Below, one piece after another: positions 31,463 through 52,167 of a DNA stretch of 64,000 nt. The first letter of the stretch is position 1, and each line of letters starts with the position of its first letter. Source of the DNA: Thermococcus gammatolerans EJ3 (GTDB lineage Archaea > Methanobacteriota_B > Thermococci > Thermococcales > Thermococcaceae). The notes beneath the pieces are model-generated. The model saw only the letters and a program-made list of their open reading frames with translations, did not search any database and was not told where the DNA came from. The DNA is taken from positions 1,116,001 through 1,180,000 of the forward strand of contig NC_012804.1 of NCBI RefSeq assembly GCF_000022365.1, given 5' to 3'. A program made the position numbers and the translations under genes.

Positions 31463-31621
31463 CTCAACCACCTCCACTTTTCAATGTCTTAGCATCGAAC
31501 TTATGTTGTTTATTCGGCCTTATAAGGTTTGTGGTTCAAACCCGTGAAGTGGAAAAACAAAACCTTCAATTGCAGTATTATGTAATTGAGCAATTAACTT
31601 TTTCGAGTTTTGTTTAATACT

Positions 31622-31900: not shown

Positions 31901-31979
31901 CTCCTCACCTCAGTTCTATTTTTCTACTTTTAAATTCGAGATTAGAACTTAAAAGATTTTTGTTCAAGATAAAGAAAGT

Positions 31980-32771: not shown

Positions 32772-32816
32772 AGCAACCACCGTGAAGAGTTGGCCTTTCT
32801 CCCTAAATCTTTTGTG

Positions 32817-34368: not shown

Positions 34369-34398
34369 TTAGGGCGACCTAATTAAAACGGTGATCGG

Positions 34399-34860
34399 AT
34401 GAACTATCTAAATATTGCGGTCTTCGACGAAGACGGAACCGAGAAGCCCCTGAAGGATCTGGTTCTCGGCAGGTGGACGGTTCTCTACTTCTATCCCAAG
34501 GATAACACGCCCGGCTGTACGACCGAGGCAAGGGAGTTCACCGAGCTCATAGACGAGTTCGAAAAGCTCGGCTTTCAGGTGATTGGCGTCTCAAGGGATT
34601 TGCCAAAAAGCCACGCTCGCTTCAAGGAGAAGCACAATCTGAAGGTAAGGCTCATTAGCGATCCGAACGCTGAGCTCCACAGGGCTTTGGGGGTGTGGGG
34701 CAAGAAGAAGCGCTACGGAAGGGAGTACGAGGGAGCGATTAGGAGCACCTTTATACTGGATCCCAACGGGAAGATAGTCTGGGAGAAGCGCAACGTCCGC
34801 GCGAAGGGTCACGCGGCGAAAGTTTTGGAAGTGGCCAAAGGCCTAATCGGCAAAGAATAG
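34399..34860 (+). CDS. Peroxiredoxin, Bcp type (1-Cys)
   Basis: Thiol peroxidase of the Bcp/PrxQ family. The 153-residue product has the peroxidatic Cys40 in 'NTPGCTTEAREF' and no other Cys, so it lacks a resolving Cys of its own. Start ATG 34399 follows GGTGATCGG, and a TTTATCAA element lies about 30-40 bases upstream. It is followed 13 bases later by a ferritin-like gene, making a small oxidative-stress operon. Confidence 0.93.
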   Translation: MNYLNIAVFDEDGTEKPLKDLVLGRWTVLYFYPKDNTPGCTTEAREFTELIDEFEKLGFQVIGVSRDLPKSHARFKEKHNLKVRLISDPNAELHRALGVWGKKKRYGREYEGAIRSTFILDPNGKIVWEKRNVRAKGHAAKVLEVAKGLIGKE

Positions 34861-34873
34861 AGGGGGTGCTTTT

Positions 34874-35350
34874 ATGGACGAGCTTGAGGCTTTAGCTTTA
34901 GCCCTGGAGGTTGAGAAGGCAGAGATGCGCTTTTATCTCGATCTCGCAAGGCGGACGAAGGACGAGAAAGCTAAGAAGATGTTCCTTTTCCTCGCCAAGG
35001 AAGAGGCCGACCACTGGGAACAGTTCGAGGAGAGGTTCCTCGAGCGCGTTGCCGAGGAGTGCAAGTTGCCAGCCGTAAGCGAAGAGCTCCTCGAAAAGCT
35101 CCTCGTCAAGGCTGAGGAGATTGAAAGCGAAGTCGATGCCGTGAGGATTGGAATGGAACAGGAAAAGCTCACGTGGGAGTTCTACGAGAGGGCCGCGAAG
35201 GAAGCAAGGCACGATTCAGTTAGGAGGCTCTTCGAGGAGCTGGCGAGGATAGAGAAGGCCCACTACGAGCTACTCAAAGCCCAGTACGACGCGGTCATGA
35301 AGACGGGCATCTGGATGGACTACCAGGACTTCAGCCTTGAGGTTGATTGA
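34874..35350 (+). CDS. Ferritin-like di-iron protein (rubrerythrin family, no rubredoxin domain)
   Basis: A 158-residue four-helix protein with two ExxH-type pairs: 'EKAEMRFYLDLARR' plus 'EEADHWEQFEERF', and 'EQEKLTWEFYERAAKEA' plus 'RIEKAHYELLKAQY'. There is no C-terminal CxxC rubredoxin domain, so it is an erythrin-like peroxidase or iron-handling protein. It is directly downstream of bcp with GGGGGTG as ribosome site. Confidence 0.88.
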   Translation: MDELEALALALEVEKAEMRFYLDLARRTKDEKAKKMFLFLAKEEADHWEQFEERFLERVAEECKLPAVSEELLEKLLVKAEEIESEVDAVRIGMEQEKLTWEFYERAAKEARHDSVRRLFEELARIEKAHYELLKAQYDAVMKTGIWMDYQDFSLEVD

Positions 35351-35396
35351 CGCTTTCTTTTTAGCAGATTTTAAGGATTTGAAATGAGGTGATACC

Positions 35397-35699
35397 ATGT
35401 TGGCCAAATATCCGTTTGAGTTGCCGAAGGATAGGCCGTTGAGCAAAAGGGAAATCGCCCAGGCCCTACGCTGGGCCATCGAGGCCGAGCTTGACGCGAT
35501 AAGTTTCTATGAGCAGCTGGCGGAGCACATCGAGGATGAAAAGATAAGGCACGTCTTCCTTGATGTAGCAAACGAGGAGAAGGAGCACTTCGGGGAGTTC
35601 CTGGCGGTTCTCTTCGCCGTTGACGAGGAGCTCGCGAAGTACATGAAGGAGGGCTTTGAGGAGGTTGAAGAAGAAACTGGGATAAAGGTGGAGCTTTGA
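35397..35699 (+). CDS. Encapsulated-ferritin-like protein (100 aa)
   Basis: The product has the compact two-helix ferritin module of encapsulin cargo: 'EAELDAISFYEQLAEHIEDE' and 'VANEEKEHFGEFLAVLF' (Glu and ExxH ligands), followed by 'GFEEVEEETGIKVEL'. This is the arrangement of the ferritin-like segment fused to the encapsulin shell in Pyrococcus, but here the protein stands alone and no shell gene lies nearby. Such modules oxidise iron as annular multimers. Start ATG 35397 follows GAGGTGATACC; a T-rich stretch follows the stop. Confidence 0.8.
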   Translation: MLAKYPFELPKDRPLSKREIAQALRWAIEAELDAISFYEQLAEHIEDEKIRHVFLDVANEEKEHFGEFLAVLFAVDEELAKYMKEGFEEVEEETGIKVEL

Positions 35700-35715
35700 G
35701 CTTTTTCTTTTTCAT
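35700..35715 (+). terminator. T-rich terminator after the ferritin-like gene
   Basis: Two T-runs (CTTTTTCTTTTTC) directly follow the stop codon, the usual archaeal termination signal. Confidence 0.4.
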
Positions 35716-35817
35716 CCGGCCACACATCGCTAAGTGATAACTTGCAAGTCTCTGTATTTTCTTGCTGATGATGGCCTATGTTTGAAGTACAAACCAAGAA
35801 AAGAAGAGAAGATGAAA

Positions 35818-37047
35818 CTAGGAACTCCACTCGACGAGCTTCCTGACGGCTTCCCTCAGCTTTGCCTCGTCCTCCTCGGTCGGCATCCCCTTGCTCTCTA
35901 TTGTCGCCACGTGGTCGAACTTGCTCCTCGTTATAAGGGTTTCTATCTTCCTTCCAGCGACGCCACCCCAGCCGTAGGCACCGACGATTAGGACGGGCTT
36001 CTCGTAGTTGGCCTTGTCGAGTATCTCGAGGAGGGCGTAGCGTATCGTGGGGTGTATCTCAGCCTCGTAGGTCGAGGCGCCTATTACCAGTGCCTCCGCA
36101 CTCGGAACCTCGCCGAGAATGTCGCTCACCGCTGGAGCCTCCTTATCGGTGAAGCGGTAAACGACGGGCTTCTTTCCGAGCTTCTTCAGCTCGTCAATAA
36201 CGATTTTCATTCTCCTCTCGACGAAGCCGTACATCGAGTCGTAGATGACGAGAACTTTGTCCTTCTCCGGGACTCCGGCCCCAACGCGTTCGTAGAACTC
36301 GAATATCCTTTTGGGGTTCTTGCACCAGGCCAGGCCGTGTCCTGGGAGAATCATCTTGGCCTCCTCGACTATGCCGAGCTTCTTGAGCTTGTTAATGCTC
36401 TGGACGATGTACTTGTGGTAGTGACCGATAACCGTGACGATGTACTTGGTAACGTAGGGCAGGTAGCGCTTTACGACCTCCTCGTCGCTGTCGTCTATCG
36501 TCTCTGGAATTGAGTAACCGCCGCCAGCGTCGCAACCGAAGATGATTTTGTCCTCGACGAGGTAGGTTATCATGCTGTCGGGCCAGTGAACCCAGGGAAT
36601 CGTTATGAAGCGGAAGGTCTTTCCACCGATGCTGAGCTCTTCCCCGTCCTTGACGACCTTGAAGTTCTTGACGGCCTCTTTTCCGTAGAAGCCCTCAACG
36701 AGGTTCCTCGCGAAGGCCGTCCCTATGAGCTGGGCCCTGTGGCCGTTTGCTTCAAGGAACGCTGGAAGGGCGCCGCTGTGGTCGGGCTCTGTGTGGTTGA
36801 GGATGACGTGGGTTATTTCCTTGGGGTCCACGAGCTTCTTAAGCTCTTCGAGGAAAAGGTCGGTGTAATCGGCCTTCGTCAGGTCAACGAGGACGTTGGC
36901 CCCGTCGAGCTTGACGAGGTACGCGTTATAGGTTATCCCCTCGGGGATGTACCAGGCCGCCTCGAAGTACTTAATCTCGTCATCATCGACCCTGATGATG
37001 TAAATTTCGGGGTCAGTGCAGAGCTTCTCAACTCTGGTCTTTACCAT
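35818..37047 (-). CDS. fprA: FprA/flavodiiron protein (A-type flavoprotein)
   Basis: Reduces O2 (or NO) to water using electrons from rubredoxin, in the cytosol. The 409-residue product has a metallo-beta-lactamase domain with di-iron ligands in 'NHTEPDHSG' and 'PWVHWPDSM', 'IFGCDAGGGY' and 'VIGHYHKYI', then a flavodoxin domain with 'VIYDSMYGFVERR' and 'GAYGWGGVAG'. ATG 37047 follows GGTGATAGTC. A palindrome just below the TATA box probably controls it. Confidence 0.95.
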   Translation of the reverse strand: MVKTRVEKLCTDPEIYIIRVDDDEIKYFEAAWYIPEGITYNAYLVKLDGANVLVDLTKADYTDLFLEELKKLVDPKEITHVILNHTEPDHSGALPAFLEANGHRAQLIGTAFARNLVEGFYGKEAVKNFKVVKDGEELSIGGKTFRFITIPWVHWPDSMITYLVEDKIIFGCDAGGGYSIPETIDDSDEEVVKRYLPYVTKYIVTVIGHYHKYIVQSINKLKKLGIVEEAKMILPGHGLAWCKNPKRIFEFYERVGAGVPEKDKVLVIYDSMYGFVERRMKIVIDELKKLGKKPVVYRFTDKEAPAVSDILGEVPSAEALVIGASTYEAEIHPTIRYALLEILDKANYEKPVLIVGAYGWGGVAGRKIETLITRSKFDHVATIESKGMPTEEDEAKLREAVRKLVEWSS

Positions 37048-37065
37048 GACTATCACCGGTTTTAG

Positions 37066-39046: not shown

Positions 39047-39736
39047 TCAGGGCCTCTCCAGAACGAGAATAAACGCTATTCTCGGGAAGAGCCAGCGAAG
39101 GCTTTTTACTCTAAAGCCCCTCTTCTCAAACTCCCCTCTAAGTTCCTCAGGGGAGGGAAAGGCATCTATCGAGCTGACGAGGTGCTCGTAGGCTTTTCCG
39201 TTGCCTGTCGTTAGCTTCCCGATGATGGGAACCACAGTTCTTGTGTATAGCCAGGCCATCTTCCCCAGGAGCGATGGGCTTTTTGAGAACTCAAGGATTA
39301 GGAGCTTTCCTCCGGGCTTCAGAACTCGGTGGAGTTCCTTTATTGCCCGCTCCCTGTCGGAGAAGTTCCTTATGCCGAATGCGATGCTAACAACATCGAA
39401 ACCCTCATCGGGATAGGGCATCTCCTCAGCGGTTCCAACGCTCAGCTTCGCAAAGGGAACCTTCCTCCTCGCTATCCTGAGCATCTCCTCACTGCAGTCG
39501 AGGCCGTAGAACTCCCCCGATAAATTTCTTTTTTCAAGGCTCCTCCTCATACAGAGTATCATGTCCCCCGTTCCACATGCAACGTCGAGGATTTTTAACG
39601 GCCTTTCTTGAACTTCTATGAACTTTAAAACCTCCTCGCAGGCCTTCCTACGCCAGAGTTTGTCAAGGCCGAGGCTTATCAGCCTGTTGGTCAAGTCGTA
39701 GCGCTCCGCGATGCTGTCAAAAAGTTCCTTTACCAA
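39047..39736 (-). CDS. ubiE: UbiE/MenG-type quinone C-methyltransferase
   Basis: SAM-dependent C-methylation of a prenylated quinol is the known family role. The ~229-residue product has 'FDSIAERYDLTNRLISLGLDKLWRR' (family signature), the SAM motif 'LDVACGTGDM', 'AFGIRNFSDRERAIKELHRVLKPGGKLLILEFSK' and 'SIDAFPSPEELRGEFEKRGF'. These distinguish it from general methyltransferases. It is last in a six-gene operon; the TTG start at 39736 has GGGAGGG upstream and overlaps the ABC ATPase end by 20 bases. TTG 39751 is an alternative. Confidence 0.9.
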   Translation of the reverse strand: MVKELFDSIAERYDLTNRLISLGLDKLWRRKACEEVLKFIEVQERPLKILDVACGTGDMILCMRRSLEKRNLSGEFYGLDCSEEMLRIARRKVPFAKLSVGTAEEMPYPDEGFDVVSIAFGIRNFSDRERAIKELHRVLKPGGKLLILEFSKSPSLLGKMAWLYTRTVVPIIGKLTTGNGKAYEHLVSSIDAFPSPEELRGEFEKRGFRVKSLRWLFPRIAFILVLERP

Positions 39737-40349
39737 GTTCCTCCCTCCCAAGGACTTTCTTTATCTTCGCGGGTCTTCCTCCTATGAGGTAAACCCTGTC
39801 GGCGACCTTGAAGAGCTCCTCGAGCTGGTGCGAGACGACCAGAACACCTTTTCCAGAATTGGCTAATTCCCGAATTATGAAAAGAAGTTCTTCCTTAGAA
39901 CGCGCGTCGAGGCCAGTAAAAGGTTCATCCAGAATCAGAACGTCGAAGTCCATGAGCAGGGCGCGCAGGATGGAAGCCTTCCTCCTCGTCCCCCCGCTGA
40001 CCTCCTTTGGGTAGAGGTCGAGGTAGCTCTCCAGGCCGAGCCTCTCGACGTATTCGAGCCTGCACTCCCTACCCCTGAAGCGGGCGGGCAGGCAGACGTT
40101 GTCCCTCAGCCTCTTCCACGGCAAAAGGTAGTCCTCCTGATAGAGGACGGATGGGTTCTTTACAAAGACTTCGCCTGAGTCTGGCTCTATGACACCCGCC
40201 AAAATCTTCACGAGGGTGCTCTTTCCAGTCCCGTTCGGCCCGATGAGGCCGATCACCTCTCCCGCGCTAACCTCAAGGCTAACCTCGTCGAGTATAAGCT
40301 CGTTGAAGGACTTTCTCAGATTTTTCACCAGTACCAGCCTTTCACCCAT
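39717..40349 (-). CDS. ABC transporter ATP-binding protein (SsuB/TauB-like) in the quinone operon
   Basis: A 210-residue ATPase with Walker A 'GPNGTGKST', Q-loop 'LYQEDYLLPWKRLRDNV' (the LPW after the Q-loop is typical of nitrate/sulfonate/taurine-type systems), signature VSGGT, Walker B 'VLILDEPFTGLD' and 'VVSHQLEE'. It is slightly short for the group. ATG 40349 follows GAGG and overlaps the permease gene by 25 bases. Confidence 0.88.
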   Translation of the reverse strand: MGERLVLVKNLRKSFNELILDEVSLEVSAGEVIGLIGPNGTGKSTLVKILAGVIEPDSGEVFVKNPSVLYQEDYLLPWKRLRDNVCLPARFRGRECRLEYVERLGLESYLDLYPKEVSGGTRRKASILRALLMDFDVLILDEPFTGLDARSKEELLFIIRELANSGKGVLVVSHQLEELFKVADRVYLIGGRPAKIKKVLGREELGKGTF

Positions 40350-41053
40350 TCCTCGAGCCTCCTGAGGAGCAACTGGTCGAGGGTTATCATGAGAAGGATT
40401 AAGAGCAACGCCCACGCGAAGACTCCAGCTTTGATTCCCAAATCGTAGGAGTAGACGAGCTGGTAGCCGATTCCGCCGGCAGAGCCAAAGGCCTCGGCAA
40501 CGACGCTTATCCTGAGCGCTATTCCCAGGGCCACTCTGCCTGCCGAAACCATCTCGGGGAGCGTTCCAGGGACGATGAAGTGCCGGTAGAGCTGAAGCTT
40601 TGAGGGTTTGAGCAGGACCACCAGCGGGCGGTATTTTTCTATCACCTTTTCGCTTGAGCTCACCCCAGCCGAAAGCAGTGCTGGAAAAGATGCCATCGCG
40701 GTAACGAGTATCGTCGCGATTGAACTCGTAACGCCGAAGAGCATTATGAAGACTATCGTCCAGACGAGAACCGAGACGCTCTGGAGGAAGACGTTTAAAG
40801 CGTTCAGAAAGTCCCTGAAGGCCCTTGAGTACAGCGCTAAAAGCATCGCGAGGCCCGTCAGGAGGGAAGCGACCAGAAAGCCAGAGAAGCTGTGGTAGAG
40901 CGTCAGCAGAAGCGAGGAGAGGATTAGGGAAAGTCCGACCTCGCGGTAGAAGGCCAGAGTCTCCGCTGGGGTTGGGATTAGGGCCGGATACAGGTGGGAC
41001 AGGACAAGCCACGAGGCCACTGCAAATAGGAAAAGGTAGAGCCAGCCCCTCAT
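40325..41053 (-). CDS. ABC transporter permease (SsuC/TauC-like) in the quinone operon
   Basis: A 242-residue permease with about six helices and the BPD_transp_1 loop 'HFIVPGTLPEMVSAGRVALGIALRISVVAEAFG', the EAA-like contact with the ATPase. It belongs to the group importing nitrate, sulfonates, taurine or aromatic and pyrimidine acids. ATG 41053 lies 2 bases after the binding-protein stop. Its partner genes flank it. Confidence 0.9.
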   Translation of the reverse strand: MRGWLYLFLFAVASWLVLSHLYPALIPTPAETLAFYREVGLSLILSSLLLTLYHSFSGFLVASLLTGLAMLLALYSRAFRDFLNALNVFLQSVSVLVWTIVFIMLFGVTSSIATILVTAMASFPALLSAGVSSSEKVIEKYRPLVVLLKPSKLQLYRHFIVPGTLPEMVSAGRVALGIALRISVVAEAFGSAGGIGYQLVYSYDLGIKAGVFAWALLLILLMITLDQLLLRRLEEWVKGWYW

Positions 41054-41055
41054 GC

Positions 41056-42018
41056 TCAACCCCTGTAGAAGATGTCGAGGTTCTCGGGGTTCTCCCTGAG
41101 GTAACCCCCGAGGTAGGCCAGCTTCCACTCGCTCTTGATACCCCTTATCAGTTCGTCGTTGAGACCCTCGTCGTTGACCTCCGTTCTGCCGTAGAGAACA
41201 TCAAGCGTTTTGCCCTCAAGGTGGTAGAGCTCTCCGAGGATTTCCTTAGTCTCGGCTGGATTCTCCTTCCAGAACTCGGCGCTCTCAATCTGAGCCTTTA
41301 TGAAGGCATGGACCAAATCCTTGTGCTTTTCGAGGAAGTCCTCCCTGACGACCCAGACGAGCATTACCGCTGGGCCATTAACTATGCCGCGCTCCCTGGC
41401 CTCGTTCCAGAGCTCTGAAAACGTCGCTATTACCGTGTAGTTCTTGACTATCAGCTGGCTCACAATCGGCTCCCAGATTACAACGGCGTCAACGCTTTTG
41501 AGCGAGTCCTCAACCGAGCCGGGCGGGACGTTCACGACTGTGTAATCATCTGGAGTAAGGTTATAGAGAACCTTCATGTAGGCCTGGAAGAGCTTGAAGG
41601 TTCCCGAGGCGACGACGGCACCGATTTTCTTACCCTTCAGCTCGGCTGGCTTCATCTTCTCCTTCCCGATTATCGCCTGGTTCTGGAGCATGTCAACGCC
41701 GATGATTTTAATCTTGACCCCACTCTGGGCAAGCTTAGCGGCCATCTCGGCGGGAATGACCGCGAAGTCCGTCTCGCCCTTTTCGAGGGCCGCTATTATG
41801 TCAGGGGTCTTGCCGAGCCTGAGAACCTCGACCTTGAAGCCGTTCTCCCTGTCGAAGCCTTTAGCCTCCATGACGTCGAGAGTGCTGATTCCTCCAAGCA
41901 ATGTTGCGGCTTTAACGGTGGGAATCTCCGTTCCCGTTGGTTTCGTCGAGTTCGAGCCTATGCAACCCGAAACCACCACAACCAGCCCAATTAGGAGCAA
42001 CGCCAGGACCTTCCTCAT
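41056..42018 (-). CDS. ABC transporter substrate-binding lipoprotein (NMT1/SsuA-like)
   Basis: A 320-residue binding protein with a lipobox-type signal ('LLIGLVVVVSGC') that anchors it outside the membrane. The mature part has the type II periplasmic-binding fold of NMT1/SsuA proteins ('GGISTLDVMEAKGFDRENGF', 'FAVIPAEMAAKLAQSGV', 'VDAVVIWEPIVSQLI'). Ligands of this family include sulfonates, nitrate and aromatic acids. It starts one base after the prenyltransferase gene, inside a quinone-synthesis operon, which suggests an aromatic precursor as ligand (inference). Confidence 0.9.
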   Translation of the reverse strand: MRKVLALLLIGLVVVVSGCIGSNSTKPTGTEIPTVKAATLLGGISTLDVMEAKGFDRENGFKVEVLRLGKTPDIIAALEKGETDFAVIPAEMAAKLAQSGVKIKIIGVDMLQNQAIIGKEKMKPAELKGKKIGAVVASGTFKLFQAYMKVLYNLTPDDYTVVNVPPGSVEDSLKSVDAVVIWEPIVSQLIVKNYTVIATFSELWNEARERGIVNGPAVMLVWVVREDFLEKHKDLVHAFIKAQIESAEFWKENPAETKEILGELYHLEGKTLDVLYGRTEVNDEGLNDELIRGIKSEWKLAYLGGYLRENPENLDIFYRG

Positions 42019-42915
42019 TCAAACCCCTCCCAAAAGCTTGTCCGCTATGGCCGAGAGCGTGAGGATTAGGCCGATTGGAATGTTGAGGTTGAAGGCCTTT
42101 GGAACGTTGTCAAGGCTCTTCCAGACGATTAGGTTCTCGTAGAGGATTAGAGCGCTTCCAACGAGCCAGCCAGCCAAGTAAACCCATCCGAGGTCGTAGA
42201 GGAACCCAGCAAGGCCAAAGAGGGCTATAGCGAGAAGGTGGAAGGCGAGGGCAATTTTGAGGGCATTCTCTATGCCAAACCTAGCGGGAATGCTCCCGAT
42301 TCCGTGCTCAGCGTCGAACTCGTAGTCCATTATCGCGTATATCGTGTCAAAGCCCGCCACCCAGAAGAGGACGCCGAAGAAGAACGCCCAGGGAACCCGC
42401 GCGAGGACTTCTATGAAAGGAGCGTTTCCTCCAGCTGCTATCGTTCCTCCAGCGACCGCCAGGGCGAGCGTTAATCCGAGGTGGAGATGGGGGAAGCTGT
42501 GCTTCCTCTTCGCCCCCGAGTAGCTCATCGCTATTAACCAGGGAATCGGGCTTAGTAAAGCAGTCCAGCGGTTGAGGAGAACCGCCGAAACGAAGTAAAC
42601 CACTGAGCCAACGACGACGAGCCACCAGGCGTCGCTCACCTTCACCGACCCCTTAATCAGCGGCCTGTTCCACGTCCTCGGGTTCTGGCTGTCTATGTCG
42701 AGGTCGGCTATGTTGTTGTAGGCCAGTGCAGCTGTTCTAAGCCCGAGGAGGGCAAGACTCATCAGGATTATCTCGGCCCAGGTAACGTGGAAACCGCTGA
42801 GGAACGCCCCGACGTAAGCGTAGGGCAGGCTGAAGAGCGTGTGCTCTATCCTGACGAGCCTCATCAACGCGTGAAACCTGCTCGCTTTACTGACTTCACC
42901 GGGGTCGAAGGCCAT
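42019..42915 (-). CDS. ubiA: UbiA-family prenyltransferase (4-hydroxybenzoate/MqnP-like)
   Basis: An integral membrane enzyme that attaches a polyprenyl chain to an aromatic acid. The 298-residue product has about nine helices and both Asp-rich motifs: 'NNIADLDIDSQNPRTWNRPL' and 'YAIMDYEFDAEHGIGSIPAR'. The 'GFDTIYAIMDYEFD' form is that of 4-hydroxybenzoate-type and futalosine-pathway (MqnP) enzymes rather than of geranylgeranylglyceryl or MenA enzymes. ATG 42915 is one base after the UbiD stop; the long upstream extension overlaps that gene and is rejected. Confidence 0.9.
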   Translation of the reverse strand: MAFDPGEVSKASRFHALMRLVRIEHTLFSLPYAYVGAFLSGFHVTWAEIILMSLALLGLRTAALAYNNIADLDIDSQNPRTWNRPLIKGSVKVSDAWWLVVVGSVVYFVSAVLLNRWTALLSPIPWLIAMSYSGAKRKHSFPHLHLGLTLALAVAGGTIAAGGNAPFIEVLARVPWAFFFGVLFWVAGFDTIYAIMDYEFDAEHGIGSIPARFGIENALKIALAFHLLAIALFGLAGFLYDLGWVYLAGWLVGSALILYENLIVWKSLDNVPKAFNLNIPIGLILTLSAIADKLLGGV

Positions 42916-42916
42916 C

Positions 42917-44362
42917 TCAACCACCGAGGTACTTTTTGAAGAGGTCTTCAAGCCTTCTGAGGACTTCTGGGTTCTCTTTAACCTCCTCAACGACCCTGCC
43001 GTCCATCTCCTCGGGGAACTTTCTGGTCGCATCAATTCCGAGCTTGCTCCCGAGCGGGGGCCTCGGAACGGCCGGGTCGAGCGCATCTGTGTGTGCCTTT
43101 GGAATCACCAGAACGTCCCGCTCGGGGTTCACGAAGGAAGCTATTGCCCATATCACCTGGTTTATGTCGTGGGGGTTTATGTCTTCGCTGACAACCACTA
43201 TGACCTTCGTCAGCGCCATCTGTCCCGTTCCCCAGAGCGCGTTGAGAACCTTTTTTCCGTGCCCGGGGTAGCGCTTCTTTATCGAGACTATCGCGACACC
43301 CTGAAAGACGCCATATTCTGGGAAGTTCACATCAACGACCTCGGGCAGGACGACCCTCATCAACGGAAGGAAAATCCTCTCGATAGCCTTTCCGATTACG
43401 GCATCTTCCAACGGCGGTTTCCCGACGACGGAGCCGTAGTAAATCGGATTGTCGCGGTAGTAAACCCTCTCGGCGTGGAAAACGGGGTAGAGCTCGTTCC
43501 TCTCGCTCGGCTTATCGTAGAAGCCGAAGTGGTCGCCGAAGGGGCCTTCTTCGCTCAGCTCGTCAACCTGAACGTAGCCCTCTATGACGGCTTCAGCGTT
43601 TGCTGGAACGAGGACGCCGTTGGGCAGGCGGTAGAGCTCCAAACCCGAACCTCGGACGAAGCCCGCGAAGAGGAGCTTGTCCATAGGATAGGGAACGGGC
43701 GAAACGGCGGTGAGGAGAGTTCCAATGTCGGAGCCGATGGCTATCGCGACGGGCATTTTACCGCCGTTTCTCTCGAGGTAGTCCCTCCAGGCCTGACTTC
43801 CGCGCTTGTGAACCTGCCAGTGGATTACACCCCTCTCGCCATCGAGGAGCATGACGCGGTAGACGCTGATGGAGTTCACTCCCTTCGGGTCCGAGAAGCA
43901 GATGAGCGGGTAGGTGAGGTAGCGCGAACCGTCCTTCGGCCAGGTTTTAAAGGCTGGGACAAAGTTCAGGGGCTCGTCTTCCACCACATTTCTCGTGAAC
44001 TCGGCTTTCCTCACGAGCTTAGGCAGATAGTTGCCCAGCTCCCTGAGCTTCCCCAGCGACGACAGCTTGTCGGATAATCCAAGGGGCAAACTTTCCATTA
44101 GCTTGAGCGGTCTCTCGCCGATTTCCTCAAGCCTTTCAACGCCGAGGGCTTCCCTAACTGTCTCGACGCTCGTGAAGAGGTTTCCCGCTACTCTCCACTC
44201 TGGATGGCCCTTAACGCGCTCGAAGAGAACGGCTCCAGCCTTATCGTACATCACTCTCCTCAGAAACGCGGGAATCTCAAGCTCGGGCGAGAGTTCTTCC
44301 TCAACCCTAATCAGCTCGTTTCTCGCCTCAAGCCATTCCAGATAGTCGCGCATGTCTCTCAT
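42917..44362 (-). CDS. ubiD: UbiD-family (de)carboxylase (UbiD/MqnL-like)
   Basis: A prenyl-FMN-dependent decarboxylase, here most likely removing the carboxyl group of the prenylated aromatic acid. The 481-residue length is typical. Motifs include 'GVNSISVYRVMLLDGERGVIHW' (Mn and prFMN site), 'KRGSQAWRDY', 'AIAIGSDIGTLLTA', and 'LSEEGPFGDHFGFYDKPS', the Glu-rich catalytic loop. First gene of the six-gene operon; ATG 44362 follows GGAGGTG. No UbiX flavin prenyltransferase is visible in this window, so the cofactor must be made from elsewhere. Confidence 0.92.
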   Translation of the reverse strand: MRDMRDYLEWLEARNELIRVEEELSPELEIPAFLRRVMYDKAGAVLFERVKGHPEWRVAGNLFTSVETVREALGVERLEEIGERPLKLMESLPLGLSDKLSSLGKLRELGNYLPKLVRKAEFTRNVVEDEPLNFVPAFKTWPKDGSRYLTYPLICFSDPKGVNSISVYRVMLLDGERGVIHWQVHKRGSQAWRDYLERNGGKMPVAIAIGSDIGTLLTAVSPVPYPMDKLLFAGFVRGSGLELYRLPNGVLVPANAEAVIEGYVQVDELSEEGPFGDHFGFYDKPSERNELYPVFHAERVYYRDNPIYYGSVVGKPPLEDAVIGKAIERIFLPLMRVVLPEVVDVNFPEYGVFQGVAIVSIKKRYPGHGKKVLNALWGTGQMALTKVIVVVSEDINPHDINQVIWAIASFVNPERDVLVIPKAHTDALDPAVPRPPLGSKLGIDATRKFPEEMDGRVVEEVKENPEVLRRLEDLFKKYLGG

Positions 44363-44476
44363 GGGAGCACCTCCGGGAGAACCCTCACAATCTCTCCAGC
44401 CTTAGACTTTATTTAACTTAACCTCCTTAGAATTGCTCCCCGTTCATTTTGACACTTGAAAAAAGGAAAAGAAAAC

Positions 44477-45472
44477 TCAGTAGTAGCCCTCGGCCTCGGT
44501 GACCTTCCCGCCGAACATCTTGTAGACGTAGAGGGTGTAGGCCATGATGATTACCGCCAGGATTACTGAGACTCCGAGGACGGCCTTGAGGGTCAGCGGT
44601 GACGCCGCGAGGTCGTGTATGCTGAGCTTGAAGTTCGGGTCGGTGGTCGAGATGACCCAGTAGGGGTACATGCTGTAGTAAACGAGGAACACCACGAGCG
44701 GGAAGGCCAGCCAGCTTATGTAGAACGCCAGCCTCTCCTCGCCCTTCTTGATGAGGTGGCCGTCGAGCAGTCCAGCCACGAGGATTACCAGCGTCAGTCC
44801 AAGGCCAAGTGGAGTCATGAGCCTCTCGAACCTCAGCGGGGCCCAGATTTTCATGCCGATTACAGTCAGGAGCAGTAAGACCACCGTCAGGAGCCAGAAC
44901 TTGAAGGCGTAGCCCCTGAGCTCCTCCTGAAGCTTTCCGGTGGTCTTGTAGACGCCCCAGTTGGCACCGTGCCATATTGTGGCGAAGAGTATGAAGAGAC
45001 CGACGATGAGCGGGTATGGCCTGAAGAGCGTAAGCAGTGAGCCGTGGAAGCCATTGGCGTCTATGGGAATTCCCATGACGAGGTTGCCGACGACGACTCC
45101 GACAACGAGCGGTATCAGCGCGCTGACGAGGGCGAAGAGCTTGTCCCAGAGTTCCTTGTTCTTGTTCCTGAACTCGAAGCCGACGGCTCTGAATATCAGG
45201 AGGAACGCCAGGAGCCATATTGCGAGGTAGAAGGTGCTGAAGAGCGTTGCGTACAGGGCGGGCCACATGGCGAAGAGCCCCGCTCCCCAGGTGATGAACC
45301 AGACCTCGTTGCCGTCCCAGACAGGGCCGATGGTGTTGATGAGGATGTCCCTGTCCTTCTGGTTCTTGATGAGGGCAAGCAGTGCACCTATACCGAGGTC
45401 AAAGCCATCAAAGGCCAGGTACATTCCGAGGAGGAAGGCGGAAAAGTAAAACCAGGCAGTCGCGTAGTCCAT
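44477..45472 (-). CDS. cydB: Cytochrome bd-type quinol oxidase subunit II
   Basis: Membrane subunit with about eight to nine helices that accompanies CydA. The 331-residue product shows 'YLAFDGFDLGIGALLAL' and 'IGPVWDGNEVWFITWGAGLFAMWP', the signature segment of CydB, and 'ANWGVYKTTG'. The ATG at 45472 overlaps the cydA stop (TGATG), so the two subunits are co-translated; GTG 45475 is a possible alternative. The gene order cydA-cydB is the usual one. Confidence 0.95.
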   Translation of the reverse strand: MDYATAWFYFSAFLLGMYLAFDGFDLGIGALLALIKNQKDRDILINTIGPVWDGNEVWFITWGAGLFAMWPALYATLFSTFYLAIWLLAFLLIFRAVGFEFRNKNKELWDKLFALVSALIPLVVGVVVGNLVMGIPIDANGFHGSLLTLFRPYPLIVGLFILFATIWHGANWGVYKTTGKLQEELRGYAFKFWLLTVVLLLLTVIGMKIWAPLRFERLMTPLGLGLTLVILVAGLLDGHLIKKGEERLAFYISWLAFPLVVFLVYYSMYPYWVISTTDPNFKLSIHDLAASPLTLKAVLGVSVILAVIIMAYTLYVYKMFGGKVTEAEGYY

Positions 45473-46983
45473 CACTGACCACCTCCCGCGACGCTAACGG
45501 CAGGGGTCGGCTTCGCGGTGACGTCACCCTCAACGGGCTCGGGACCCTCCCTGATGAGCTTCCTGACGAAGTGGAGCCAGATGTAGAACAGCACGCTGTA
45601 GACCACGACGAAGCCTATGAGGGTTATCAGCACGTGGGTCGCCGAGACGTTCGGTGAAACTCCCGTGTTGGTTGTTACCATGCCCCAGACCATCCAGGGC
45701 ATCCTACCGACCTCGTGGGTGAACCAGCCGGCCTCACTGGCGAGCCAGGGGAGCGGGACGGTAACGACCAGCACCTTTAGGAACCACCTGGCGTCGTAGA
45801 GCTTGCCGAGCAGGAGGAGGAGCACTCCAATGAGTCCTATCAGTATGAAGAGCGTTCCGAGGCCTATCATGACGCGGTAGGCGTAGAACATGAAGGCCAC
45901 CGGCAGGGCTTCCTCAAGAACCTTGACCATCTGCTCGTTGGCGTCCGGGGCGTTGGGGTCAACGCCGTGAGCCTTCATGAGGGTCTCGATGAACTCCTTC
46001 CTGTCCTTCTCGCTGGCGAAGTTCGGGTTGTTGAGAACCTGCTCGTACCAGACGTATCTGGCCGCGTCGTGGAGTCCCATAACTTCGGCGTTCCAGTCAC
46101 CGAACGAGAGCCAGCTGAGGAGCTTTGGAATCCCTATGGCGGCTTTAACCTCCTGGTTCTTCTCGTCAACTATTCCAAATATTATCATGGGTGCACCCTT
46201 CTCTGTCTTGAAGAGTCCCTCGTCGGCGGCGAGCTTGGTCGGCTGGTACTTGGCGATGACCTGGCCCTCCGCGTGGCCCGTTGGGTAGAGCTGTATTACC
46301 GCGCTTATCGCGAGGACGACCACACCTATTGCAACTGCCGAGCGGGCGACCTGGACGTGCCTCTTCTTGAGGAGGTAGTAGGCACCGACGGCTGCGACTA
46401 TGTAGGCCCCGGTGAGTATGGCGGAGTTGATTGTGTGGGTGTACTGGCTCACAAGGAGCGGGTTGAAGACCGCCCCCATGAAGTCGGTGAGCTCGGCCCT
46501 GCCGTTCTGGATTATGTAGCCTGTTGGGGTCTGCTGCCAGCTGTTTGCGATGAGAATCCACAGGCCAGAGAGGCTCGAACCGATGAACACGAAGAACGAT
46601 GAAATCCATGTTATCGCCCTCGGAAGCCTGTCCATGCCGAAGAGAAGCACGCCGAGGAACGTTGACTCCAGCGCGAAGGCGAAGAGACCCTCGAGCATCA
46701 GTGGAGGACCGAAGATCGAGCCGACGAACACTGAGTACTGCGACCAGTTCGCTCCGAACTCGAACTCCATGACTATTCCCGTCGGGACACCGAGGACGAA
46801 GAATATCCCAAGCCACTTGCTGAAGAACTTCGCCGCCTTGTGCCACTGCTTCTCGTTGGTTATGGCCGCCATGGTCCAGAGCAGGAAGACCATGAAGGCC
46901 ATTCCTATGCTCGCGGGCACGAAAATCCAGTGGTAGCCCGCGGTCAGGGCGAACTGTATTCTCGACAGCAGTATCGGGTCCAT
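45472..46983 (-). CDS. cydA: Cytochrome bd-type quinol oxidase subunit I
   Basis: Oxidises quinol and reduces O2 to water. The 503-residue product has the heme ligands and proton-path residues of the family: His18 in 'TAGYHWIFVP', Glu in 'ALESTFLGVLLFG', His in 'SQYTHTINSAIL' and Met in 'YRVMIGLG'. The quinol loop motif QPxKLAAxE is intact ('YQPTKLAADEGLF'). 'GWFTHEVGRMPW' differs from the bacterial GRQPW by one residue. The Q-loop is short. ATG 46983 follows GAGGTGAGC; a TATA box lies about 50 bases upstream. Confidence 0.95.
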   Translation of the reverse strand: MDPILLSRIQFALTAGYHWIFVPASIGMAFMVFLLWTMAAITNEKQWHKAAKFFSKWLGIFFVLGVPTGIVMEFEFGANWSQYSVFVGSIFGPPLMLEGLFAFALESTFLGVLLFGMDRLPRAITWISSFFVFIGSSLSGLWILIANSWQQTPTGYIIQNGRAELTDFMGAVFNPLLVSQYTHTINSAILTGAYIVAAVGAYYLLKKRHVQVARSAVAIGVVVLAISAVIQLYPTGHAEGQVIAKYQPTKLAADEGLFKTEKGAPMIIFGIVDEKNQEVKAAIGIPKLLSWLSFGDWNAEVMGLHDAARYVWYEQVLNNPNFASEKDRKEFIETLMKAHGVDPNAPDANEQMVKVLEEALPVAFMFYAYRVMIGLGTLFILIGLIGVLLLLLGKLYDARWFLKVLVVTVPLPWLASEAGWFTHEVGRMPWMVWGMVTTNTGVSPNVSATHVLITLIGFVVVYSVLFYIWLHFVRKLIREGPEPVEGDVTAKPTPAVSVAGGGQ

Positions 46984-47449: not shown

Positions 47450-48598
47450 ATGGCCAAGGTGTTGGTTCTCGGAGGGGGCACCGCGGGTCTCATTGCGGCG
47501 CGCTACCTTAAAGCTGAGGCTGACAGGCTGAAGCTCGACGTTGACGTGACGATGGTGACCGCGAGCGAGAGGCACTACATGCCACCACTCTTCATGGAGG
47601 TCGCGCTCGGCTCGGCAGAGGCTCACGAAACCTGGGCTCCGATAAAGAACGCCGAGAAGGTCTACGGTTTCAGGGTTGACATCGATAGAGTAACTAAGAT
47701 TGACCTCGATAACAGACAGGTAAAGACCGAGGGAGGAAAGGTTTACGACTACGACTACCTCTTCCTCGGCCTCGGCGTCAAGTACGCCTGGGACAAGTAC
47801 AAAGGCCTTGCCGAGCACGGCTACCACAACTACACCCTTGAAGGCGCACTCGAGCTGAGAAAGGCTCTCTACGGGTTCAAAGGAAAGAGGATAGTCATCT
47901 ACGCCCCCGAAGTGCCCTACAGGTGCGGCATTTATCCCTACGAGATGGGGCTCGCGCTCAGGGCCTACTTCGAGGCCAAGGGACTCAACGACGTTGAGAT
48001 AAAGGTCGTTCATCCCGGTGACGGTCCCGCGAGGAGCCTCGGCCCGACCGTGAGCAGGTTCTTCGAGAAGGAGTTCGAGAAAGCCGGAGTGGAGTTCATC
48101 CACCACGACGGGCACGAGAGAATAACCGAGGGCAAACTTGTAACCAAAAACCTCGAGCTCGACTACGACCTACTCATCAAGGTCCCGCCCATAGCGATTC
48201 CCGACGTCATGGCCTTCATGGCCGATAGCCAAGACCCGCGCTGGGCCAAGGTTAAGGGTCCTGACTTCCGCTACCCCGGCTACGATGATGTTTACGTCGT
48301 CAGCGAGGCGAGCATGCCACCCTTAGGGCTCTTAACGGCTGGTGTCCCGCTCCACAACGCGGCGGTAGTTTCTGCAACGAGCATACTCCACCAGGTGCAT
48401 GGAGGCTATCCGATAGCCGAATTTGTCCCGACGATGTGCCTCGGCGTGGGTTATCACACGGGCTTCACGGCCAACTGCGAGTATAGGTGGACGGGGAGCA
48501 AGTACGAGAGAACCTGCTACCTGCTCTTCAAGAGCCCCCTCATAAAGGAGATGAAGGCCTCCTTCTACAGGGGCTGGCTTGACAGTTTGAGGCTGTGA
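47450..48598 (+). CDS. Sulfide:quinone oxidoreductase-like FAD protein
   Basis: A 382-residue pyridine nucleotide-disulfide-family flavoprotein with FAD motif 'VLVLGGGTAGLIAARYLKAE', 'YDYDYLFLGLGVKY' and 'VYVVSEAS'. Cysteines in 'PEVPYRCGIYPYE' and 'VPTMCLGVG' lie where SQRs carry catalytic thiols, and two more Cys are near the end. SQR passes electrons from sulfide to membrane quinone. Substrate cannot be fixed by eye; a related sulfide or NAD(P)H dehydrogenase is possible. First gene of a six-gene operon with a DUF1641 partner; ATG 47450 follows GGAGGTGCGG. Confidence 0.82.
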   Translation: MAKVLVLGGGTAGLIAARYLKAEADRLKLDVDVTMVTASERHYMPPLFMEVALGSAEAHETWAPIKNAEKVYGFRVDIDRVTKIDLDNRQVKTEGGKVYDYDYLFLGLGVKYAWDKYKGLAEHGYHNYTLEGALELRKALYGFKGKRIVIYAPEVPYRCGIYPYEMGLALRAYFEAKGLNDVEIKVVHPGDGPARSLGPTVSRFFEKEFEKAGVEFIHHDGHERITEGKLVTKNLELDYDLLIKVPPIAIPDVMAFMADSQDPRWAKVKGPDFRYPGYDDVYVVSEASMPPLGLLTAGVPLHNAAVVSATSILHQVHGGYPIAEFVPTMCLGVGYHTGFTANCEYRWTGSKYERTCYLLFKSPLIKEMKASFYRGWLDSLRL

Positions 48599-48608
48599 GG
48601 TGAGGAAG

Positions 48609-49028
48609 ATGAGCGAGCTCAAGCTTACCCCCGAAGAGGTTGCCGCCGTTAGGGAACTTGTCGAGGTTGCCGTAGCTCTGAAGAAGGGCGGAACCCTCGG
48701 ACTGCTCAAGTCCTTCACCGAGAACGGCGACAGGTTACTCGAAACAATCTCCGAAGAGAAGGCCCTTTTGAGGCTCGCCGCGATAGGAAATTCAGCCCTC
48801 GAACCGGTCAGGGAAATTGAGGCAGAGAAGGTAAACGACATCAGCATGAACGTTGAGGAACTTGTCAACGCCCTTCTCAGGGCCCTCGCAGAGACAAACC
48901 CGAAGGAGGTTCCAAAGGTCGGGATGACGGGAGCGATTGGCTACCTCCGCGACGAGGACGTTCAGAAGGGCCTCGGCTTCCTATTGACCCTTGCGAAGAA
49001 CCTCGGTAGGGTTTTGAACGAGAAGTGA
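48609..49028 (+). CDS. DUF1641 protein, SQR-associated
   Basis: A 139-residue helical acidic protein ending in the DUF1641 signature 'GYLRDEDVQKGLGFLLTLAKNLG'. DUF1641 proteins are regularly encoded beside SQR-type flavoproteins in archaea and bacteria, which supports the assignment of the gene 10 bases upstream. Biochemical role unknown. ATG 48609 follows GAGGTGAGGAAG. Confidence 0.85.
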   Translation: MSELKLTPEEVAAVRELVEVAVALKKGGTLGLLKSFTENGDRLLETISEEKALLRLAAIGNSALEPVREIEAEKVNDISMNVEELVNALLRALAETNPKEVPKVGMTGAIGYLRDEDVQKGLGFLLTLAKNLGRVLNEK

Positions 49029-49057: not shown

Positions 49058-49954
49058 GTGAGGGTTCTCTTCACCTACATGGGAGCGCCGACGACACCCG
49101 ACGAAGTTGAGGACTTCATATTCCGCTTTCTCTACGACGTGAGGAAGGACATAGGACTCGACGTGCCGGGGGCCAGGGCGATAATCAGGGGCATAGCCAA
49201 GGCCCGCGCCCGGGCAGTCAGGGGCCACTACGCGGTTATGGGCGGAAGAAGCCCTCTTGTGGATTACATGCGAGAGATAGCCGAGCTGGTGAGTGAGAGA
49301 ACAGGTTATGAGATAACCCTCGGCATGTGCTATTCCAGACCTCTCCTTGAAGAACTGAGCGACGGCTTCGACCTCGTCTTTCCGCTCTACCACGTCTACT
49401 CCAGCTCGACGACCGAGAGGTGCCTGATTAAAATCAGAGAGCTCTTCGGTGAGAGACCCTACATCAGAGAGTGGTGGGGCAACGAGAGGTTCATAGCGTG
49501 GGTCAGGCACAACATCGAGAAGGGTTTGGCGGAGAGCGGTTTTGAGAACCCCCACGTCGTCCTGAGCGTCCACAGCCTGCCAAGGAAGGTCATCGAAGGG
49601 GGCGACCCCTACCTGAAAAGCCACACAGAGCTGGCGAAGAGGGTCATGAAGGCCTTCGACTTCGAGTGGGAGATGGCCTTCCAGAGCAGGTTCGGCAAAG
49701 GTGACTGGCTCGGGCCGGAGATTCCAGAAGTTCTGGAGAGACTTAAGGAGGAGGGCGTTGAGGAGGTCTTAGTTTACCCCCTCAGCTTCCTCGTTGAGAA
49801 CGTCGAGACGCTTTATGAGCTCGACGTTGAATACCGGAAAAAAGCCGAGGAGCTCGGGCTGAGGTTTTACCGGGCTAAGCTCGACCACAGGCACGATTAC
49901 CTTATCTCGGCGATAGCCCAAGAGCTTAGGAGGTGGGAAGATGGGAAGGCTTAG
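49058..49954 (+). CDS. hemH: Ferrochelatase (HemH/CpfC-like)
   Basis: Inserts Fe2+ into protoporphyrin IX or coproporphyrin III. The 298-residue product has N-terminal 'LFTYMGAPTTPDEVEDFIFRF', the catalytic His172 in 'VVLSVHSLP', 'GGDPYLKSHTELAKRV', 'FQSRFGKGDWLGP' and the catalytic Glu250 in 'VETLYELDVEY'. The residue equivalent to the second metal-path His (SEH in human) is Asn248. The GTG start at 49058 is preceded by GGAGGTGGAACC. It lies in the SQR operon beside cydAB, so heme for the oxidase is the likely purpose. Confidence 0.9.
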   Translation: MRVLFTYMGAPTTPDEVEDFIFRFLYDVRKDIGLDVPGARAIIRGIAKARARAVRGHYAVMGGRSPLVDYMREIAELVSERTGYEITLGMCYSRPLLEELSDGFDLVFPLYHVYSSSTTERCLIKIRELFGERPYIREWWGNERFIAWVRHNIEKGLAESGFENPHVVLSVHSLPRKVIEGGDPYLKSHTELAKRVMKAFDFEWEMAFQSRFGKGDWLGPEIPEVLERLKEEGVEEVLVYPLSFLVENVETLYELDVEYRKKAEELGLRFYRAKLDHRHDYLISAIAQELRRWEDGKA

Positions 49955-50270
49955 GGACGCTTTCATAGCCTACGTCTTCGGCTTCGTTGGGGGTATTCCC
50001 CTGCTCCTCATGAAGGACACGGACGAGCTGACAAAGCTTCATGCGGCCTACTCCAGCGTGGTGGGCTTCTTCTTCTGGATTGCCTTCATGGGAGCATGGC
50101 ACATGTACCCGGGTTATCCTGAGTTCGGCTGGTCGCTCTACGTCTTGGCCCTCTGGTACGTCTACGCGCTTTTCGGGGTCTGGAAGATGCTGAGGGGTAA
50201 GACCTACAGGATTCCCGGCGTCGAGGGACTGGCCAAAAAGCTCGTTAGAGTAATAGCCCCAGCCGTGTGA
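49941..50270 (+). CDS. Small membrane protein in the SQR operon (109 aa)
   Basis: About three to four hydrophobic helices (near 7-22, 36-55, 62-82) and a basic C-terminal tail; no named family, though layout resembles DUF4870-type proteins. It overlaps the ferrochelatase end by 14 bases with GGAGGTGGG upstream of ATG 49941. A role in heme or porphyrin handling is possible only from context. Confidence 0.7.
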   Translation: MGRLRDAFIAYVFGFVGGIPLLLMKDTDELTKLHAAYSSVVGFFFWIAFMGAWHMYPGYPEFGWSLYVLALWYVYALFGVWKMLRGKTYRIPGVEGLAKKLVRVIAPAV

Positions 50271-50279
50271 GGGGTGAAA

Positions 50280-51275
50280 ATGAGACGATCCATCGTCGCC
50301 CTGTTTTTCACCGTTATGCTCCTCTCGGGAGTGCCCGTTCTGGCGGATGAGTTCACCGAGGAGGGGAACGCCTTCATGGAGGACTTCATAAAGGCCATGA
50401 ACACCGGCAACTACTCCCTCATAGAGCCCCACCTGAGCGAGAGGCTCAGGAACGAGCTCGGGGAGAGGGAGTTTGCCCAGCTCAGGGGCTTCACGATGGA
50501 GAACTACGGCCGGTTGCTGTCCTTCAGCTTCGTCAACGAGAGTCGTGAAGGGGATATGGTGAAGCTGGAATACGAGGTCAAGGCGGAGAAAGGGGCCTTT
50601 CCGATCGCCTTAACCTATGAGAACGGCGAGCTCGTTGGAATCGGCCTAGGGGTAAGGGCAAAGCCAAATCCAGCGGGAATGGTCGCGATGATTCTCGGCA
50701 CTCTGCTCGTCCTGGGGGCGTTTTACTTCATCCAAAAGCCAGTTACTCCAGACCTCGTCCTCGGAGCTGGGATAGCGCTCGGTCTGTCGGTTCTCATCCC
50801 CTTCTACGGGATAATCTCGCTCGTCGTGGCGTACTCCACGCTCTCCCGCGCCCTGTTCACGGCCTTTACAACCGCCCTGACTGTCGAGGCCGTCAAGTTC
50901 TACTTCGCCCGCAACAGGGACGGCCTTTCCATAGGCCTCGGGCTCGGACTTGGCCAGTATGTCCTCCTCTCCATCGGCACCTTCGTGGCGACGAACTTCA
51001 TAATGCAACTACCCGTTTCCTTCACGGGGGCAACGTACTGGGCCTTCCTCTTCGCGCTAACGTTTACGGCTTTCCACGCGCTTTCGGCTGAGACGTATTC
51101 GAAGCTCCGCGACGGTAGGTTGCTCCTTCTCCTCGCATTCATCGAGGGGCTCGCGCTTGCGATGGAGTCGCTTTCGCGTCTCGGCCCTTCGCTGTTGCTT
51201 GTCTTACTGGGAATAGCGGTGGGACTCAGGCTCGGAGGTGTCATCGATGGAATCGCTGGACGAGAGGCTCGTTGA
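50280..51275 (+). CDS. Signal peptide, DUF3887-like domain and polytopic membrane protein (331 aa)
   Basis: The N-terminal signal (about 1-22, ending 'VPVLADE') leads a ~95-residue external domain ('AFMEDFIKAMNTGNYSLIEPHLSERLRNEL') like DUF3887/NTF2-type proteins. About seven or eight membrane helices follow from residue ~125 to the end, similar in layout to YhfC/PrsW-like proteins. No catalytic motif was identified. ATG 50280 follows GGGGTGAAA; its end overlaps the polyprenyl synthase start by 29 bases. Confidence 0.65.
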   Translation: MRRSIVALFFTVMLLSGVPVLADEFTEEGNAFMEDFIKAMNTGNYSLIEPHLSERLRNELGEREFAQLRGFTMENYGRLLSFSFVNESREGDMVKLEYEVKAEKGAFPIALTYENGELVGIGLGVRAKPNPAGMVAMILGTLLVLGAFYFIQKPVTPDLVLGAGIALGLSVLIPFYGIISLVVAYSTLSRALFTAFTTALTVEAVKFYFARNRDGLSIGLGLGLGQYVLLSIGTFVATNFIMQLPVSFTGATYWAFLFALTFTAFHALSAETYSKLRDGRLLLLLAFIEGLALAMESLSRLGPSLLLVLLGIAVGLRLGGVIDGIAGREAR

Positions 51276-52167
51276 AGCACTTGAGGGGAGCGTTGAGCTC
51301 GCGAAGAAAATCGGGGAGTACATAATCCGGAGCGGGGGGAAGAGGATAAGGCCGAGGATAACCCTGGCAGTTTCGAAAGGCCTCGGACTCGACGAGAACG
51401 ATGCCCTCGACCTCGCCTCGGCGATAGAGCTAATCCACACCGCCAGCTTAGTTCACGACGACGTCATTGATTTGGCGGAGAAGAGGAGGAACAACCCCAC
51501 CGTCGTCATGCGCTGGGGGCCCGAGCTTGCCGTCCTCAGCGGGGATTTTCTCTTCGTCCGCGCGCTGAGGATTATAGCCAAAAAGAAGGCCGCGATGGTG
51601 GACTACGTCGCCAAAGCCGTCGAGGACATGGTCAAGGGTGAAATCCTTCAGGAAGCCGTGCGCGGGAGCGTCCATCTCGACCTCGACACGTACTACGAGA
51701 TAATAGACAGGAAGACAGGAAAGCTTTTCGGAGCCGCCTTTGCGCTTCCCGCCTACTACCTCGAAAAGCCCTACTGGATGGAGCTCGACAAAGCCGGAAC
51801 GCTCGTCGGAAGGGCGTTCCAGATAGTTGACGACGTTCTCGATTACTTCCCCGGAACCGGAAAGGACCGCTTCAAGGATTTGCTCAACGGAAAGGCGACC
51901 CTCCCGCTGATCCTCTACACCGAGCGCTACGGCTCTTCATTCGTCGAAAAGATTCTTAAGAACCCGAGCGAAGAGAACCTGCTCAATCTCTTTGAGAGGA
52001 TGATGAATGCTGGTGTGTTCGAGGAATCTCTAAAAATAGCCAGGGGATACGTGGACGGGGCTCTGAAGCTCATTGGAGACCTGCCCTTCGATGGGAGCGA
52101 GGTTGTGAGGCTTGTTTCCGGATACTTTGAGGGGGTCTTCAAAAGGGTCAGGACTTCAGGTAGTTAG
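51247..52167 (+). CDS. Polyprenyl diphosphate synthase, probably long-chain
   Basis: Type E prenyl synthase of 306 residues with the two Asp-rich motifs 'LVHDDVIDLAEKRRNNPTV' and 'QIVDDVLDYF', plus 'GGKRIRPRITL'. In this family the fifth residue before the first Asp motif controls length: aromatic residues give C15-C20, Ala gives long chains. Here the stretch is 'HTASLVHDDVID', with Ala at that place, as in hepta- and octaprenyl synthases. That fits a quinone side chain rather than C20 lipid synthesis. ATG 51247 follows GGAGGTG. Confidence 0.9.
   Translation: MESLDERLVEALEGSVELAKKIGEYIIRSGGKRIRPRITLAVSKGLGLDENDALDLASAIELIHTASLVHDDVIDLAEKRRNNPTVVMRWGPELAVLSGDFLFVRALRIIAKKKAAMVDYVAKAVEDMVKGEILQEAVRGSVHLDLDTYYEIIDRKTGKLFGAAFALPAYYLEKPYWMELDKAGTLVGRAFQIVDDVLDYFPGTGKDRFKDLLNGKATLPLILYTERYGSSFVEKILKNPSEENLLNLFERMMNAGVFEESLKIARGYVDGALKLIGDLPFDGSEVVRLVSGYFEGVFKRVRTSGS

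Follow-up and report, generated by a model that had tools for sequence, protein, structure and literature searches.

A ferrochelatase linked to the cytochrome bd oxidase of Thermococcus gammatolerans probably completes haem from a porphyrin that the cell does not make

The retention of ferrochelatase without the rest of the haem pathway has already been documented in Haemophilus influenzae, Strongyloides and filarial nematodes (PMC3596385). In archaea, Storbeck et al. 2010 named hemH only for Thermoplasmatales, and T. gammatolerans has neither hem nor ahb entries in their list (PMC3004389), so that the hemH of this species is unreported there. A late haem enzyme of archaea has been studied in Haloferax volcanii, where ahbD (HVO_2144) has norB, nirK and genes for blue copper proteins as neighbours and its deletion impairs anaerobic growth, a defect rescued by protohaem (Kosugi et al. 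2017, PMC5746218). The cydAB-ubiD gene order of T. gammatolerans, identical to the locus discussed here, was described by Zivanovic et al. 2009 (PMC2718504), and lateral acquisition has already been proposed for the Thermococcus cydAB and quinone genes (PMC2718504, PMC3512248), whereas the ferrochelatase is not discussed in the portions of these two papers considered here. The T. gammatolerans ferrochelatase was not found described in the literature searched, and neither was the salvage block of its relatives presented below.

The gene belongs to a window of 64,000 nucleotides of the T. gammatolerans EJ3 genome, in which hemH occupies positions 49058..49954 (+) and encodes a protein of 298 aa. 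The GTG start at 49058 is common to relatives, the longer open reading frame beginning at 49025, and the complete genome (2,045,438 bp, one contig) contains a single ferrochelatase copy. HemH scored 204.9 bits (E 2e-60) against the Pfam family Ferrochelatase PF00762 (cut-off 27) and 162.6 bits against the NCBIfam hemH equivalog TIGR00109 (cut-off 124.6). Its catalytic residues His172 (SVHSLP), aligned with human H263 and B. subtilis H183, and Glu250 (ENVETLYEL), aligned with human E343, were invariant in the alignments. The AlphaFold model (pLDDT 88, pTM 0.89) has the two-domain ferrochelatase fold; its best PDB match was human ferrochelatase (Z 32.4, rmsd 2.3, 294 residues), with the coproporphyrin enzymes ranked after it (Z 29.6) and SirB (best 19.2) and CbiK giving Z scores of 19.2 and lower. 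The original prediction of a HemH/CpfC-type gene with catalytic His and Glu is borne out by these profile scores, residues and fold match, and on this basis the gene encodes a true ferrochelatase, with Fe2+ insertion as its predicted activity. HemH shares with human FECH and E. coli HemH (HemH/PpfC) the profile scores over cut-off, the fold, the catalytic His and Glu, a lip segment and a Met at the human M76 position, but has no mitochondrial or iron-sulfur extension, sits in a genome without the porphyrin pathway and, compared with the human enzyme, carries Asn248 in place of H341.

HemH was detected in 19 of 94 Thermococcales genomes, all from one genus, and CydA in 18, each of which also has HemH. 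The sole mismatch is an 88%-complete draft (G066) with hemH on a 3.3-kb contig, broken at the contig end. The naive probability of this overlap, 2e-18, is uncorrected for kinship or linkage, and the co-occurrence may rest on few independent events because hemH and cydAB form one linked locus and share descent. In the window, the presumed haem consumer CydA (subunit I of the bd oxidase; 45472..46983, -) is followed on its strand by CydB (subunit II; 44477..45475, -), assigned by profile matches. CydA residues H18, H183 and M372, which we take to be the axial haem ligands, aligned with E. coli H19, H186 and M393, and the quinol loop GWFTHEVGRMPW was also conserved with the E. coli protein. This bd oxidase was the only haem-dependent respiratory oxidase identified in the analysis.

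Divergent from cydAB, the hemH strand begins with a sulfide:quinone-oxidoreductase (SQR)-like FAD protein (47450..48598, +; profile matches) and, 1 bp after it, a DUF1641 protein (48600..49028, +). Downstream of hemH are a small membrane protein (49941..50270, +) that overlaps the hemH end by 14 bp, a second membrane protein with a weak DUF3887-like N-terminus (50274..51275, +) that follows after 3 bp, and a polyprenyl diphosphate synthase, presumably for the quinone tail (51238..52167, +; profile matches). The order SQR, DUF1641, hemH, two membrane proteins, polyprenyl synthase and Mrp-type subunits is conserved in relatives, and the two membrane proteins (49941-51275), tightly coupled to hemH here and kept beside it in relatives, are candidates for porphyrin or haem handling. 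As a separate observation, the SQR-like and DUF1641 genes (47450-49028) show a dN of 0.12 to the relatives G032 and G021, compared with 0.003-0.035 between these two, a pattern not seen in hemH next door; allele replacement is possible. Farther upstream in the window (27565-37056), genes of oxygen defence encode a rubrerythrin-DUF835 fusion, a peroxiredoxin, a rubrerythrin and an ODP-lactamase/flavodoxin (flavodiiron-like) protein.

In profile searches, HemB and HemC were each found in 0 of 94 Thermococcales genomes, while both were found in 11 of 14 named control genomes, the positive controls including four archaea. ChdC was likewise absent from all 94 genomes (controls positive in 7 of 14), GlutR from the 8 tested, and no HemN C-terminal domain (HemN_C) was over cut-off in 8 genomes. 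The view that Thermococcales are without tetrapyrrole synthesis, from which the original prediction started, agrees with these counts, and the genome search for haem-pathway genes and chdC that it proposed thus found the early pathway and ChdC absent, as well as no gene of the AhbD-type family TIGR04053 over cut-off in T. gammatolerans. The genome does encode a radical-SAM/SPASM protein of 558 aa (C1:796786-798459) with an N-terminal extension of about 150 aa, which comes closest to the NirJ2 and AhbD models but scores far below their cut-offs. This protein was considered as a substitute decarboxylase and rejected, since its distribution is untied to HemH or CydA: it is scattered in Thermococcales, including genera without either protein, and is missing from several Thermococcus.

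A conserved block of six genes (about 5 kb), missing from the window, separates cydB from ubiD in every relative that is assembled across this region. It encodes a TIGR04053 radical-SAM/SPASM protein, two binding proteins, a FecCD permease, a HemG-like Flavodoxin_5 protein and a haem-type ATPase. TIGR04053 was found in 16 Thermococcales genomes, all with HemH and CydA, while two further relatives break at contig ends. Generic families are matched by the importer genes (FecCD and Peripla_BP_2), whereas scores stay below the haem-specific equivalogs, with 217 bits for the ATPase against its best match, a haem ABC ATPase (cut-off 261), and 52.5 bits for a binding protein against IsdE (cut-off 298.65). 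The second binding protein (L040:16076-16945 and orthologs) is a weaker member of the Peripla_BP_2 fold that seems to lack a signal peptide, its sequence beginning with the mature domain, and could be a cytosolic tetrapyrrole carrier. The flavodoxin matched Flavodoxin_5 (PF12724) at 57.3 bits, and its best named match was HemG (NF008316) at 28.4 bits, far below the cut-off of 142. The radical-SAM protein of L040 reached 521.8 bits against TIGR04053 (cut-off 395) but only 305.8 bits against the AhbD equivalog TIGR04545 (cut-off 500).

The TIGR04053 family was not named in the literature searched. A Haloferax larsenii homologue also exceeds its cut-off (501.6 bits); its neighbours encode a halocyanin and a cbb3-type (NO reductase-like) subunit, and this neighbourhood, matching that of ahbD in H. 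volcanii, suggests that HVO_2144 belongs to the same family. The protein of the relatives differs from AhbD in its sub-threshold equivalog score, in a context in which no AhbC-AhbD pathway was seen, and in its absence from T. gammatolerans. TIGR04053 genes were observed beside halocyanin/NO-reductase-type genes in haloarchaea and beside nitrite reductase in Thermus; the family may mix reactions of haem b and haem d1 type, and the Thermus neighbourhood makes other haem-modifying roles possible. Together, the block seemingly represents an oxygen-independent porphyrin-salvage cassette, and the linked FecBCD-type importer strongly suggests porphyrin uptake in these relatives. The original prediction of porphyrin or coproporphyrin uptake is supported to this extent only, T. 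gammatolerans itself being without the block and coproporphyrin being the less likely substrate.

T. gammatolerans has lost the entire six-gene block. No orthologs were found by tblastn over the whole genome, which yielded only distant paralogs (best radical-SAM protein 32% identity, FecCD 31-40%). The ubiD-cydB junction (44363..44476) retains a 3' remnant of the block ATPase gene next to ubiD, together with 67 bp of unmatched sequence (44391-44457) for which no source was found by blast among the sequences gathered. The hemH gene is under strong purifying selection, with an overall dN/dS of 0.075-0.08 (0.075 to G032, compared with 0.077 between block-bearing relatives), and its T. gammatolerans branch carries 46 synonymous and 18 non-synonymous changes, with no relaxation; cydA and cydB gave 0.09 and 0.10 to G032. 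Since hemH is still constrained, either the chelatase still matters or the block loss is recent.

Given the absence of HemB, HemC and ChdC, the nearly identical genome sets of HemH and CydA and the conserved haem ligands of CydA, the best reading is that HemH finishes haem from a porphyrin that the cell does not make and feeds it to the bd oxidase, to which we assign a probability of about 0.6. It is proposed that the cell would take up a porphyrin set free by other microbes of the vent, with protoporphyrin IX or its porphyrinogen the likeliest, and that HemH would insert Fe2+ to give haem b for CydAB, an oxidase that needs three haems and reduces O2 with electrons from quinol. The originally predicted local conversion to haem for the bd oxidase is therefore in keeping with gene distribution and ligand conservation. 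In the relatives, the FecBCD-type importer would bring in porphyrin, the HemG-like flavodoxin could oxidise porphyrinogen with quinone or another acceptor, and the TIGR04053 enzyme could turn Fe-coproporphyrin (coprohaem) into haem b without oxygen, the three together widening the range of usable precursors. T. gammatolerans keeps the chelatase step only and, having lost the block, must rely on another uptake route. Against this reading stand the absence of the dedicated importer, the HemG-like gene and TIGR04053 from T. gammatolerans, in which no uptake route was identified, and the AhbD-type gene of the relatives: should HemH convert protoporphyrin straight to haem b, that gene would have no obvious role unless the cells use coproporphyrin or coprohaem as well. 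The literature searched yielded no haem spectrum, no enzyme assay and no growth test for any Thermococcus.

The choice of porphyrin bears on the role of the radical-SAM enzyme. HemH could metallate imported coproporphyrin III, with the TIGR04053 protein decarboxylating coprohaem to haem b in an AhbD-like manner, in which case T. gammatolerans would stall at coprohaem or use another radical-SAM enzyme. Of 18 relatives, 16 have the TIGR04053 gene adjoining cydB and the remaining two break at contig ends; the family apparently takes in the haloarchaeal AhbD type, and Lactococcus lactis plasmid pAH1-1 (1-3774) carries a parallel set, MFS-hemQ-MFS-hemH. The features of HemH itself, however, point towards protoporphyrin. 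The lip insertion of human ferrochelatase is missing from coproporphyrin enzymes, and its absence is said to admit coproporphyrin, its presence to exclude it (PMC9133952); in our alignment the lip segment is present in Thermococcus, human and E. coli, and the enzymes of B. subtilis, Lactococcus, Loigolactobacillus and Deinococcus lack it. At the metal-facing position HemH has Met8, where coproporphyrin enzymes carry Tyr or Phe (PMC9794026). In a tree of 17 sequences with long branches, in which the branching order within the protoporphyrin-type group is not resolved, protoporphyrin and coproporphyrin groups split with 100/100 support and Thermococcus falls on the protoporphyrin side with human and E. 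coli; a scan of the genome collection for HemH relatives matched Thermococcus only, its search patterns being too specific. Lip, Met and tree position make coproporphyrin the less likely and protoporphyrin IX the more likely substrate. The T. gammatolerans HemH is, moreover, still constrained though TIGR04053 is gone, and the proximity of TIGR04053 to nitrite reductase in Thermus means that family membership leaves the reaction unfixed, so that a coproporphyrin route is considered unlikely. That the enzyme instead handles a different metal (cobalt or nickel, for instance) or a different tetrapyrrole (such as sirohydrochlorin) could be argued from the fold that it shares with SirB and CbiX and from Asn248, which replaces the His of the human and B. 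subtilis enzymes and which the original prediction suggested might alter metal choice. Asn248 is invariant in 14 of 14 aligned Thermococcus copies, but the position is His in human, B. subtilis, Deinococcus and Leptospira, Cys in E. coli, Pseudoalteromonas and Acinetobacter, Asn in Lactococcus and Loigolactobacillus, and Gln in haloarchaea, and H341 has been assigned to the hydrogen-bond network of proton abstraction, with the metal entering from the opposite face (PMC9133952). The metal argument from Asn248 is weak for these two reasons and was dropped. Given also the full-length match to human ferrochelatase, far above the best SirB, the hemH equivalog score and the linkage to CydA, another metal or tetrapyrrole is highly improbable.

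Other readings concern whether the route operates, and in which direction. The loss of a whole block from an otherwise complete genome and the ATPase remnant at the junction would fit a salvage route already broken in T. gammatolerans, with hemH, and perhaps cydAB, as relics of a recently lost function. Such decay is quite unlikely, as hemH, cydA and cydB are all undisrupted and show low dN/dS, that of hemH equals the value between block-bearing relatives, and the junction contains unmatched filler and is not a clean cut. Removal of iron from scavenged haem for iron supply, the reverse reaction, has been put forward for other organisms in which ferrochelatase alone is retained (PMC3596385); the strict co-occurrence of HemH with a haem-requiring oxidase and its conserved placement beside it make this very unlikely here. 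Finally, analogous enzymes can escape homology searches, and the 558-aa AhbD/NirJ2-like protein might be taken to belong to a de novo haem pathway that is hidden or has diverged strongly. This idea deserves next to no credence, as the HemB and HemC models that recognise most controls, archaea among them, find nothing in the 94 Thermococcales genomes, the 558-aa protein extends to genera that have neither HemH nor CydA, and hem and ahb genes are missing from what Storbeck et al. 2010 list for this species (PMC3004389).

The metallation of a scavenged porphyrin for the bd oxidase may be accompanied by a similar economy in quinone synthesis. On the cydAB strand lie a UbiD-family decarboxylase (42917..44362, -; profile match), a UbiA/MqnP-type prenyltransferase (42019..43086, -), an NMT1-type ABC substrate-binding protein (41056..42018, -), an open reading frame whose C-terminal half is the ATPase of this same ABC transporter (39717..41012, -) and a UbiE/MenG methyltransferase (39047..39751, -), the last four assigned by profile matches. 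This quinone gene set, comprising UbiD, UbiA, UbiE and the polyprenyl synthase with the NMT1-type transporter inside the group, begins midway; MqnA and MqnD were absent from 8 of 8 genomes searched, and the quinone ring (39047-44362) may be scavenged as a precursor too. It is tentatively proposed, at somewhat less than even odds, that some Thermococcus possess a complete oxygen-independent haem-salvage cassette (FecBCD-type importer, HemG-like oxidase, ferrochelatase and AhbD-like decarboxylase) that serves a single bd oxidase, and beside it a comparable set, equipped with an importer of its own, for salvaging quinone precursors, so that the laterally gained oxidase would travel with the means to finish its haem and quinone. 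The pAH1-1 cassette, likewise combining portable transporters with late haem enzymes, is a bacterial analogue of such a late-haem salvage set, but relies on a peroxide-dependent ChdC/HemQ and a coproporphyrin-type HemH, whereas in Thermococcus the block combines an ABC importer with a HemG-like flavodoxin and a radical-SAM enzyme. Thermococcus resembles the known ferrochelatase-only auxotrophs (PMC3596385) in keeping ferrochelatase while the remaining pathway is missing, and differs from them as a free-living hyperthermophilic archaeon in which hemH is locked to a bd oxidase and, in relatives, is also tied to an importer and oxygen-independent enzymes of late-haem type.

Thermococcales have been taken to be without tetrapyrroles, and how the bd oxidase present in some of them is loaded with haem had been an open question, to which the locus offers a concrete, testable answer in the metallation of scavenged porphyrin. 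As T. gammatolerans has naturally lost the block with the importer and radical-SAM genes, comparing it with block-bearing relatives could tell a protoporphyrin route from a coproporphyrin one. Should the proposed reading hold, these archaea would need porphyrin shared by other vent microbes to respire oxygen or to defend themselves against it, and the partial completion of haem by auxotrophs would extend to hyperthermophilic archaea.
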